Under the pieces are notes generated by a model, which saw only the letters and a program-made list of their open reading frames with translations, was not told the DNA's origin and made no database searches. A stretch of DNA of 64,000 nucleotides from an uncultured Trichococcus sp. (GTDB taxonomy: Bacteria > Bacillota > Bacilli > Lactobacillales > Aerococcaceae), in assembly GCF_963667775.1 (NCBI RefSeq), contig NZ_OY764015.1, positions 62,001 through 126,000 on the forward strand, written 5' to 3'. Positions 307 to 64,000 of this stretch are shown here, in pieces (the first letter of the stretch is position 1; each line of letters starts with the position of its first letter). The translations under genes were made by a program, and so were the position numbers.

Positions 307-603
307 TTTTTTTACATTCCTCAATTCTTGTTTATAGTCAATTAATTCTAGCATATTCCAGAAAAAATAAAAGGATTTTAACAGAGTGTTTACAAAAAAC
401 GAGTAGGATCGCCTCTTTTGCGGCAATCTTTTGTCCTGTTTTGTCGTAATGTTGCCATCATTTTTGGGTGCAGTCATTGCTTGCGGAGCAGCCACGAAAA
501 TGAGAAATCGCTAAATTTTTTTGGTTAACGCTCCCAATTCTAGTCTCGGAGGAAGTGCCATGATAGAATGAAAAAAATGAAACAGAAAGTTGGCTGAGAC
601 TTA

Positions 604-1950
604 ATGGATAAGAAATTATCGAACAAAGAATATATATACATCGGCTCCATGCTCTTCGGCTTATTTTTTGGTGCCGGCAACCTGATTTTTCCGGTCCATA
701 TGGGGCAATTGGCTGGGCAAAATTTGATTCCGGCGATGTTAGGTTTCATCGTGACGGCAGTGGGATTGCCGTTTCTGGGCATCGTGGCGATGGGGCTGTC
801 GGGTAAAGAGAGTCTGTTGGAAATGGCGAGCAAAATCCATCCGAAATACGGCGTTTTCTTTACCGCCGCGCTTTATCTGACAATCGGACCGTTCTTTGCG
901 ACGCCGCGTACCGCGACCGTCTCTTTCGAGGCAGCCTTTGCGCCCTATTTGGACCCTTCAATGACAAAAATGGCGCTGTTCCTGTTCTCGTTGCTTTTCT
1001 TCGCAGCCGTCTTGTGGTTCTCCCTGAAACCGTCGGAAATATTGAAGTGGGTAGGCAAAGTTCTGAACCCGATATTTCTGGTGTTCCTTTCGATCCTGAT
1101 CCTCTTCGGATTTTTCGCTCCGATGGGTGCAGCGAGTGAAATGCCAGTGGACGCGAGCTATCAGACAGGTGCATTCTTCAAAGGCTTTTTGGAAGGGTAC
1201 AACACGATGGACGCTCTGGCTTCCTTGGCTTTCGGCATCATCGTCGTTACGACGATCCAGGGCTTGGGCATCACCAAGACAACGACTATCGCGAAGGACA
1301 CGATAAAATCCGGAGCGATCAGCATGCTCTTGATGGCTGTCATTTACGGTTCGCTGGTTTACTTGGGTGCAACGAGCCGCGGGGTTTTTGAAATCAGCGA
1401 CAACGGCGGCATCGCTTTGGCGCAAATTTCAAATGAGTACTTCGGCATCTTCGGGGCGGCCCTGTTTGCGGTCATCATCACCGTCGCTTGTCTGAAAACG
1501 GCAATCGGACTGATCACAGCCATCAGCGAAACGTTTGTGCATATGTTTCCGGATTCATTGGACTACAAACAATACGTCTATCTATTTACCGCAATTTCAT
1601 TCGGTTTGGCGAATTTGGGTCTGAATCAGATCATCGCGTTTTCGATTCCGGTGTTGATGTTCCTCTATCCACTGGCGATCACGTTGATTTTTCTGTCGAT
1701 CACGAGCAGCCTCTTCAATGACCGGGCAATCGTCTACCAGATGACGACCTTGTTCACCTTGCCGTTCGCGGGCGTTGATTTCCTGAAAGCTTTGCCGCAA
1801 GGGATCAAGGACGCTGCCGGCATGAACGGTGTCATCACCTGGACCGATTCAGCGATCCCGTTATCCGAGATCGGAATGGGTTGGCTGATCCCGTCACTGA
1901 TCGGTTTTGCGATCGGCTTGGCGATTTCGAAAAACAATAAATTAGCTTAA
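604..1950 (+). CDS. brnQ: Branched-chain amino acid:cation symporter BrnQ
   Basis: A 448-residue, very hydrophobic protein with about twelve membrane segments. The N-terminus contains GSMLFGLFFGAGNLIFPVHMG, a hallmark of the LIVCS (BrnQ) family, followed by GPFFATPRTATVSFE. The family imports leucine, isoleucine and valine with Na+ or H+. Length is normal for the family. The gene stands alone, with its own terminator just downstream, and is convergent with ppk. The upstream ribosome site is weak (GGCTGAG), so the start is supported mainly by homology of the first residues. Another probable branched-chain amino-acid transporter, azlCD, is present at 48.4 kb. Confidence 0.95.
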   Translation: MDKKLSNKEYIYIGSMLFGLFFGAGNLIFPVHMGQLAGQNLIPAMLGFIVTAVGLPFLGIVAMGLSGKESLLEMASKIHPKYGVFFTAALYLTIGPFFATPRTATVSFEAAFAPYLDPSMTKMALFLFSLLFFAAVLWFSLKPSEILKWVGKVLNPIFLVFLSILILFGFFAPMGAASEMPVDASYQTGAFFKGFLEGYNTMDALASLAFGIIVVTTIQGLGITKTTTIAKDTIKSGAISMLLMAVIYGSLVYLGATSRGVFEISDNGGIALAQISNEYFGIFGAALFAVIITVACLKTAIGLITAISETFVHMFPDSLDYKQYVYLFTAISFGLANLGLNQIIAFSIPVLMFLYPLAITLIFLSITSSLFNDRAIVYQMTTLFTLPFAGVDFLKALPQGIKDAAGMNGVITWTDSAIPLSEIGMGWLIPSLIGFAIGLAISKNNKLA

Positions 1951-37742: not shown

Positions 37743-38831
37743 ATGACTGATAAACCGATCATCACTTTGGAGAATGTAAAAAAAGTCTACGATGATGAAA
37801 CTGTATTGCACGATATTAACTTTGAACTTGAGAAAGGCAAATTCTATACTCTGTTGGGCCCCTCAGGTTGCGGGAAAACGACAATTCTGCGTTTGATTGC
37901 AGGATTCGCGGACGCTACAGAAGGTATCATCAAGATCAATGAGGAAGTAGTGAATGACATACCAGCGAACCGACGCAAAGTCAATACGGTTTTCCAGGAC
38001 TACGCCTTGTTTCCCCACATGAACGTTTTCGACAACATCGCATTCGGGTTGACGATCAAGAAAATGCCCAAAGAGCAGATCAAGCAAAAAGTGGAGGAAG
38101 CCCTGAAAATGGTCCAGCTTGAGGGCTACGAAAACCGTGAAATCAGCGAAATGTCAGGCGGCCAACAACAGCGGGTTGCAATCGCCAGGGCAATTGTAAA
38201 CGAACCGGATGTGTTGCTGTTGGATGAGCCGTTGTCGGCGTTGGACTTGAAGCTGCGCACGGACATGCAGTACGAACTGAGGGAACTGCAGCAGCGCCTC
38301 GGTATCACTTTTATTTTTGTCACGCACGATCAGGAAGAAGCATTGGCCATGAGCGACTGGATTTTCGTCATGAACAAAGGTGCTATCGTCCAGAGCGGCA
38401 CACCTGTGGATATTTACGACGAGCCGATCGACCGATTCGTGGCAGATTTCATCGGTGAAAGCAATATCGTTCCGGGTACGATGGTTGAGGATTATAAAGT
38501 CCGCTTCGTGGGCAAAGAGTTCGAATGTTCCGATGCCGGCATCACACCGGGTGAAAAAATCGAAATTGTCATCCGTCCGGAAGATCTGGAACTGACGACT
38601 GTCGAAAACGGTAAACTGGTCGTGAATATTGATACACAATTGTTCCGCGGCGTCCACTATGAGATCATCGGTTACGACAAGGATGGAAACGAATGGATGA
38701 TCCATTCCACTAAGAGCGCAGAAATCGGCAAAGATGTCGGGCTTCACTTCGGGCCACAGGACATCCACGTCATGCGCCTGGGCGAATCCGAAGAAGAGTT
38801 CGATGCCCGTCTCGAAAGCTATGAAGAGTAG
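37743..38831 (+). CDS. potA: Spermidine/putrescine ABC transporter ATPase PotA
   Basis: 362 residues. GPSGCGKTT (Walker A), [21 protein letters not shown], signature [14 protein letters not shown], Walker [13 protein letters not shown] and VTHDQEEA are intact. The C-terminal TOBE region spans about 240-345. It energises polyamine uptake. First gene of potABCD. Confidence 0.95.
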
Positions 38832-63382: not shown

Positions 63383-63521
63383 ACTTAATCTCAACCAATC
63401 CGAATGAGGCCAACTCTGGAGCCGAAGGATTTCAGCTATTTTGTGGATGATCCTGAACAACTATCACATGATCGTTCGGAAATGCCTGTTGAAAAAAATT
63501 ATGATTTTCTTTCCAAAATCA

Positions 63522-63550
63522 TTGACATATACGCTGTATTTGTATAGAAT
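63522..63550 (+). promoter_or_regulatory. Promoter of the decarboxylase leader
   Basis: TTGACA, 17-bp spacer, TAGAAT. The expected transcript start is near 63557, giving a leader of about 236 nt. Confidence 0.85.
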
Positions 63551-63556
63551 TTAGCT

Positions 63557-63792
63557 TGCATAAATTGAATATCTCTTATTAATAGCCGTTGAGACGAGGG
63601 GTCGAAGATACGGTGGCAAACCAATCAATCTAATTTTATTTTCAAGGATTGATATTGGGTGCCCAACCTGAGCGTAGGATTATCCAAGTCCTATGAGCAA
63701 TAAGAGGAAAAGCAGCTGATAGATATCGAAGCTTTCCTTTGGTTGGAGAGCTTTTTTTATGCCCATTTTTTATATCAAAGGGGGAAATCTAT
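63557..63792 (+). promoter_or_regulatory. Structured leader, riboswitch-like, with terminator
   Basis: A closing stem P1 pairs CTCTTATT (63573-63580) with AATAAGAG (63699-63706). Inside are CCAATCAATC / GATTGATATTGG, TGGCA with a following TGCC, and TAGGATT / AGTCCTA. Downstream is a terminator AAGCTTTCC / GGAGAGCTT plus T7 (63729-63758). GGAAAAGC (63706-63713) can pair with GCTTTCC (63731-63737) as an antiterminator and competes with P1 at its edge. The GGCAAACC and GGGTGCC stretches recall SAM-clan aptamers, but the full consensus is absent and I cannot name the class. Confidence 0.65.
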
Positions 63793-64000
63793 TTGGCTGA
63801 AAAGGTTTTATTCAATTCAGACACTTATTTGGAAGGTCATTCCGACAAAATTACTTACCAAATTTCTAACGTTAAAGCAAAAAATATTACACATATCAAA
63901 ATGCCGCTTTTCGAAGCGCTTGTTAAATATGCGAAACAGGACGTTACGCCTTTCGATGTCCCTGGACATAAAATGGGTGCGCAGATGACGCCATTCAAGA
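63793..64000 (+). CDS. Orn/Lys/Arg decarboxylase, N-terminal part (cut by window edge)
   Basis: The first 69 codons of a gene running off the right edge. TTG 63793 is the start, with GGGGG eight bases before it. The sequence has MPLFEALVKYAKQDVTPFDVPGHKMG, the substrate- and PLP-domain entry region of the Bacillus SpeA/YaaO-type family of PLP-dependent basic amino acid decarboxylases. About 37 residues precede this motif, longer than in the Bacillus proteins. It would make a polyamine precursor such as putrescine, cadaverine or agmatine. The specific amino acid cannot be decided from this part. Confidence 0.82.
   Translation, partial: MAEKVLFNSDTYLEGHSDKITYQISNVKAKNITHIKMPLFEALVKYAKQDVTPFDVPGHKMGAQMTPFK

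Follow-up and report, generated by a model that had tools for sequence, protein, structure and literature searches.

Near the right-hand end of the window, the 64,000-nt stretch of Trichococcus DNA analyzed here, the plus strand carries a promoter-like site, a closed four-stem aptamer, an antiterminator and a terminator, followed by a gene for an Orn/Lys/Arg decarboxylase. The promoter-like site (TTGACA-17-TAGAAT, 63522 to 63550), found by a promoter scan, agrees with the consensus at 11 of 12 positions, in keeping with the earlier note that called it well formed, and is kept across an alignment of 11 leaders from the genus, but it is not significant by itself, as the region holds one such site against a mean of 1.5 in shuffled sequences. 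The aptamer (63573 to 63706), placed by its match to the SAM-I family RF00162, by a class model and by its fold, has the SAM-I architecture in its spermidine riboswitch variant. The 5' strand of P1 (63573 to 63580) pairs with 63699 to 63706, and the predicted fold gives P2 with an internal loop (63585 to 63614), P3 (63615 to 63663; 5' strand 63615 to 63630, 3' strand 63647 to 63663) and P4 (63673 to 63695), the last also supported by covariation. By analogy with SAM-I, we assume that the GAGGG hairpin loop of P2 could pair with CCU of J3/4 in a putative pseudoknot. The last bases of the P1 3' strand (63699 to 63706) are taken up by the antiterminator (63704 to 63739), which is mutually exclusive with P1 and with the intrinsic terminator (63728 to 63758; hairpin 63728 to 63754, then a T run to 63758). 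A ribosome-binding-site-like sequence, AAAGGGGG (63777 to 63784), comes before the preferred TTG start codon at 63793, and the decarboxylase reading frame occupies 63793 to 64000, runs past the window and ends at position 1935 of locus L003.

Fold statistics agree with the riboswitch-like character that the earlier note had assigned to this leader. Its closed multi-stem domain of about 135 nt corresponds to the 134-nt aptamer, which folds at -40.4 kcal/mol (z -3.38; 1 of 200 shuffles equally stable), and the terminator fold at 63728 to 63762 reaches -13.1 kcal/mol (z -3.49; 0 of 200 shuffles); the whole 236-nt span that the note had delimited is less striking (z -1.89; 12 of 200). The mutually exclusive antiterminator and terminator described there are likewise found, with antiterminator bases overlapping both the P1 3' strand and the 5' arm of the terminator, although the antiterminator fold alone (63692 to 63739, -8.8 kcal/mol) has a z of only -0.98, with 28 of 200 shuffles as stable. 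The platform of an OFF switch, a terminator with a competing antiterminator, is present.

In a cmscan search, RF00162 was the sole gathering-level match in the whole window, at 44.8 bits against a cut-off of 44.4 and over model positions 1 to 108 of 108; the Rfam 15 matches at the leader included no spermidine family of its own. The suspected resemblance to the SAM clan is borne out by this full-length match, and the statement that no SAM-I core could be found was wrong. Such a match to a known class is also what the earlier note had set against the novelty of the element, and it was found, barely over the cut-off. Lysine, guanidine and M-box aptamers, whose cores had been reported absent, are ruled out, with no family besides RF00162 up to E = 1 within 63500 to 63800.

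The leader shares with SAM-I its four-stem architecture; it differs in its P2, in its marginal score, in a U at position 11 of J1/2 (63583) in place of the conserved G of the consensus, and in an altered P3 internal loop, where alignment to RF00162 and the fold place an extra, unpaired A (63619 to 63620) in GGCAAACC. In SAM-I, the conserved G11 contacts SAM. The J1/2 and P3-loop changes are common to other class members: among the 40 members with an intact 5' end (42 less L106, with its 5' end cut, and L099, with its 5' end replaced), position 11 is U in 39 and A in one. All 30 ordinary SAM-I loci compared, a subset of the RF00162 matches, have G at position 11 and a GCAACC loop, in contrast to U and GCAAACC in the window; the expression used to read these loci required CAACC, and all 30 fitted it. 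The RF00162 cut-off was reached by 3 of the 11 class members scored (42 were found in all), and an ordinary SAM-I riboswitch elsewhere in the same genome reaches 80.9 bits; this element (G000:C1:2840412-2840522) precedes an open reading frame, with a terminator-like T run between them. The genome's own metK is directly preceded by a SAM-III riboswitch (SMK box, RF01767; G000:C1:508221-508296, 57.6 bits, cut-off 45), a separate family without a match at the leader.

Salvail, Balaji, Roth and Breaker (Cell Reports, 2023; PMC10853860) described 13 SAM-I variants upstream of polyamine genes in Oceanobacillus, Bacillus, Trichococcus and other hosts, with the T. ilyis ldcC leader as a main construct. 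In a B. subtilis reporter, this leader was repressed by spermidine and its expression raised in speD and speE mutants; in vitro it terminated with spermidine (T50 214 uM) and likewise with spermine, norspermidine and N1-acetylspermine, and SAM and MTA caused no termination, in-line probing being done with the Oceanobacillus damuensis copy and binding being shown on an Oceanobacillus copy (PMC10853860). According to a figure legend of that paper, nucleotides that matter for the binding of SAM are altered by the changes in J1/2 and in the internal loop of P3, and the paper's table includes a T. flocculiformis element (FJMZ01000015.1/31932-32065) of 134 nt, the same length as the aptamer in the window. 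The latter matches the T. flocculiformis DSM 2094 aptamer at 134 of 134 nt, and the 86-nt stretch between aptamer and start codon has one and the same sequence in the window, T. flocculiformis and T. ilyis DSM 22150. The leader resembles the spermidine riboswitch in architecture, in the J1/2 and P3-loop changes as that legend gives them, and in expression platform, associated polyamine genes and genus, and we see no essential difference, apart from its setting: the gene that the paper calls ldcC is followed here by an agmatinase gene, and the spermidine pathway is apparently SAM independent. We therefore regard it as almost certain that the leader is this known spermidine riboswitch, acting as a transcriptional OFF switch. 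What is confirmed here is a known, experimentally validated class, not a new one; the new aptamer class that the earlier note had considered possible was already published in 2023, with Trichococcus among the founding examples, and its guess of a polyamine among the candidate ligands was right (PMC10853860). From the near-identity to the T. ilyis leader, a selective response to spermidine with rejection of SAM is predicted for the leader in the window as well.

The switch would then work as follows. Plentiful spermidine would bind the four-stem aptamer and keep P1 closed, so that the P1 3' strand is withheld from the antiterminator; with the antiterminator blocked, the terminator would form and transcription would stop ahead of the decarboxylase gene. 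When spermidine is scarce, the antiterminator would form, and decarboxylase and agmatinase would be made to yield putrescine. The support assembled here consists of element identity, class-typical changes, conservation and gene order; against the mechanism stand the marginal RF00162 score, the lack of a spermidine family among the Rfam 15 matches, a P1 without two-sided covariation, an antiterminator no stabler than shuffled sequences, a genome in which no SpeD or SpeE family was found, and one Trichococcus metagenome contig (L099) with a replaced P1 5' strand and J1/2.

The basic amino acid decarboxylase that the earlier note had read downstream is recovered as OKR_DC_1 (PF01276, 263.8 bits), and it is followed at L003 1984 to 2841 by an agmatinase gene (TIGR01230, 291.4 bits, cut-off 174.3). 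Curated decarboxylase models all scored far under their cut-offs, the best being LdcC with 117.9 against 968. Because its neighbor is an agmatinase, an arginine decarboxylase (speA) is likelier than the lysine decarboxylase (ldcC) named in the paper, and we infer that the enzyme acts on arginine.

Polyamine genes lie downstream in 40 of the 42 class loci, that is, in every locus with enough sequence, and the remaining two hold too little to read a gene order. The first gene is metK in 29 loci (decayed in L107) and the decarboxylase gene in 10, nine of them named Trichococcus and one a Sedimentibacter record. The decarboxylase gene comes after metK in 24 of the 29 metK-first loci, the sequence of the other 5 ending before this point; the order metK-decarboxylase-speD-speE-speB is complete in 14 of the 24, 7 of the 24 end earlier, and no speB was found in three Lysinibacillus loci (L128, L134 and L137) with more than 7 kb of sequence each. 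That most Bacillales members precede metK-speA-speD-speE(-speB) is a point that we did not meet in the available text of PMC10853860. In the Trichococcus-type loci, agmatinase directly follows the decarboxylase in 6 of 10, and the other 4 end before it. Rummeliibacillus sp. POC4 (L116, leader 1182 to 1304) has riboswitch, decarboxylase and agmatinase without a metK, speD or speE match, and so shows the Trichococcus arrangement without an evident metK scar of the kind described next. In Caldibacillus thermoamylovorans (L107, leader 523 to 646, minus strand), the operon metK is a decayed short reading frame with a 37.6% match, followed by a decarboxylase-like start, which constitutes a second, separate loss of metK from the operon.

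The first 26 codons of the Trichococcus decarboxylase gene (63793 to 63870, plus strand) appear to be what is left of the beginning of a metK gene, now joined to the decarboxylase. Residues 1 to 26 give a gapless alignment with the MetK N terminus and are identical to 28 operon MetKs at 14 to 16 of 26 positions. The local score is 80, the best of 1000 shuffles, each scored against 10 of these 28 MetKs, reaching 40; the decarboxylase N termini of four Bacillales score 24 to 28 against the MetK start. This scar is found in 10 of 10 Trichococcus-type loci and is a point that the available text of PMC10853860 does not appear to raise. The genome's own two MetKs match the scar at 14 and 9 of 26 positions, so that identity alone does not single out the source metK; the scar's place immediately behind the leader favors the operon copy. 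Moreover, the decarboxylase is 56.9 to 71.0% identical to the Bacillales operon copies, the two highest values coming from copies that end at a locus edge, and 41 to 44% identical to its counterparts in 5 other genomes from the family; this higher identity outside the family suggests a transfer of the operon from Bacillales, as far as identities can tell, and we infer that the Trichococcus operon is a trimmed Bacillales operon. Our results lead us to favor, with some reserve, a history in which Trichococcus gained the riboswitch together with a Bacillales metK-speA-speD-speE-speB operon, metK was reduced to the scar, both speD and speE disappeared, and the switch was left to control only the putrescine supply of a SAM-independent carboxyspermidine pathway.

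The gene content of the window's genome (99.09% complete) fits the last step of this history. Neither AdoMet_dc (PF02675, the SpeD family; controls positive in 8 of 14) nor Spermine_synth (PF01564, the SpeE family; controls positive in 11 of 14) gave a match there, a result that covers this one genome. It does carry nspC (C1:37675-38784, 488.6 bits, cut-off 409.05), adjoined by a homologue of carboxynorspermidine synthase that scores 431.7 bits, under its model cut-off of 800, and, across the genus, 12 of 13 genomes have an nspC that passes the cut-off, the one without it being 51% complete. The enzymes of the carboxy route convert putrescine and aspartate semialdehyde to spermidine with no need for SAM. 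Since SpeD and SpeE families are missing and nspC and its neighbor are present, the switch probably limits putrescine for this SAM-independent route; the absence of both families is also the reason why the spermidine source is deduced, with putrescine presumably feeding the carboxyspermidine route. Polyamine import is another possible source, and a potA-type polyamine transporter ATPase is encoded in the window at 37851 to 38645 (361.8 bits against a curated cut-off of 355.6). Among the papers searched, none contains both carboxyspermidine and spermidine riboswitch, carboxyspermidine has no occurrence in the main text of PMC10853860, and a likely SAM-independent pathway is a point that we did not meet in the available parts of that paper.

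The same genes raise the question of whether the leader in Trichococcus responds physiologically not to spermidine but to a different triamine or a carboxy-route intermediate, such as norspermidine or carboxyspermidine. Such a ligand would suit the pair of nspC and carboxynorspermidine-synthase homologue, the termination in vitro with norspermidine and spermine and the silence of the main text on carboxyspermidine (PMC10853860). We nonetheless consider it improbable, given that spermidine acts on the T. ilyis leader both in cells and in vitro, that various other amines were inactive on this leader (PMC10853860), and that the same aptamer core accompanies speD and speE in Bacillales. Far less credible is an ordinary, divergent SAM-I riboswitch that reads SAM as a proxy for polyamine demand: the common architecture, the RF00162 match over the cut-off and the many Bacillales members ahead of metK speak for it, but it is at odds with the U at position 11 and the changed P3 loop, with a genome that already holds an ordinary SAM-I and a SAM-III riboswitch, the latter ahead of its own metK, and with the T. 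ilyis leader being unresponsive to SAM (PMC10853860). A new class of aptamer that senses lysine, ornithine, arginine or guanidine, to which only the decarboxylase directly downstream might have pointed, can be set aside with hardly any hesitation, as it is ruled out by the RF00162 match and by the published spermidine specificity of near-identical leaders (PMC10853860). The presence of G11 to U beside a polyamine gene had also raised the idea of a sensor of dcSAM, MTA or SAH, which was rejected on the inactivity of MTA and dcSAH, dcSAM itself having been unavailable to the authors (PMC10853860); among the papers listed by a literature search on riboswitch and decarboxylated S-adenosylmethionine, none had these words in its title or abstract, and nothing was found combining SAM-I, variant and arginine decarboxylase.

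With the spermidine riboswitch thus retained and already known, its rewiring in Trichococcus is a modest new observation, and the wider census of the class is also new. If the reading is correct, a riboswitch descended from a SAM sensor polices spermidine in a cell that makes spermidine without SAM, and, should both scar and pathway be as we propose, Trichococcus would represent a natural separation of spermidine sensing from SAM metabolism, which fits the published evidence against SAM and MTA as the signal (PMC10853860). There is also a practical side: Rfam 15 files the leaders of this class as SAM-I or misses them, so that polyamine operons will be mistaken for SAM-regulated ones.

For the census, a covariance model built from 8 Trichococcus leaders (R1) matched 4 of 398 genomes of the class sample, namely, the window's own, one with a member (85.7 bits) and two with ordinary SAM-I (44 to 47 bits). 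Among the 261 genomes in the family of G240, it matched 46, with 29 above 80 bits; the 17 at 29.7 to 46.7 bits probably represent ordinary SAM-I and were left out, and the two of these that were inspected (L051 and L052) are of the GGCAACC type, L052 having a metK-like start downstream. A pattern scan of named genome contigs gave 46 stretches, of which 42 match R1 at no less than 83.9 bits and four without an R1 match (L102, L110, L118 and L138) were dropped as chance; the pattern was written from members already found, so that divergent members are missed. Hosts of the class are Trichococcus, Sporosarcina, Lysinibacillus, Viridibacillus, Rummeliibacillus, Kurthia, Metalysinibacillus, Oceanobacillus, Ornithinibacillus and Caldibacillus, together with a metagenome bin named Bacillus coagulans. 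We found no mention of Kurthia or Metalysinibacillus as hosts in the available text of PMC10853860. The Sedimentibacter sp. SX930 record (L139) carries a Trichococcus leader and is probably a misnamed Trichococcus.

An alignment of 36 variant rows (35 distinct) has 94.1% of cells paired, and 18 of its 39 pairs show two-sided changes, a number that none of 500 shuffles reached (mean 13.3); sliding the partners cuts pairing to 37.8 to 47.3%, and as the alignment was fitted to the structure, these pairing figures are favored. The 42 named members give 94.9% pairing and two-sided changes at 17 of 39 pairs. The covariation across species that the earlier note had looked for in P1 and the inner stems is thus found in part: two-sided changes are strong in P3 and P4 and extend to part of P2, but P1 has none in either the 36-row or the 42-member alignment, and with 97.5% of its cells paired it is nearly invariant, hence conserved, yet not proven by covariation.

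Within the window's genus, the RF00162 search detected the variant in 11 of the 13 genomes. The two others are G064, which is 63% complete and has no decarboxylase match, and G071, which is 51% complete and has the decarboxylase at 97% identity. A further RF00162 match, at 23.6 bits, occurs in G054 and was left aside. On a Trichococcus metagenome contig (L099, 6371 to 6506), other sequence replaces the P1 5' strand and J1/2, leaving a leader with P2 to P4, platform and gene that scores 22.3 bits with RF00162; the replaced 5' end may be a real break or an assembly fault. Finally, L047 and L048, from two genomes that belong to different genera of the family, hold one and the same divergent SAM-I-like sequence of 120 nt (52.6 bits), an identity that may reflect transfer or contamination.
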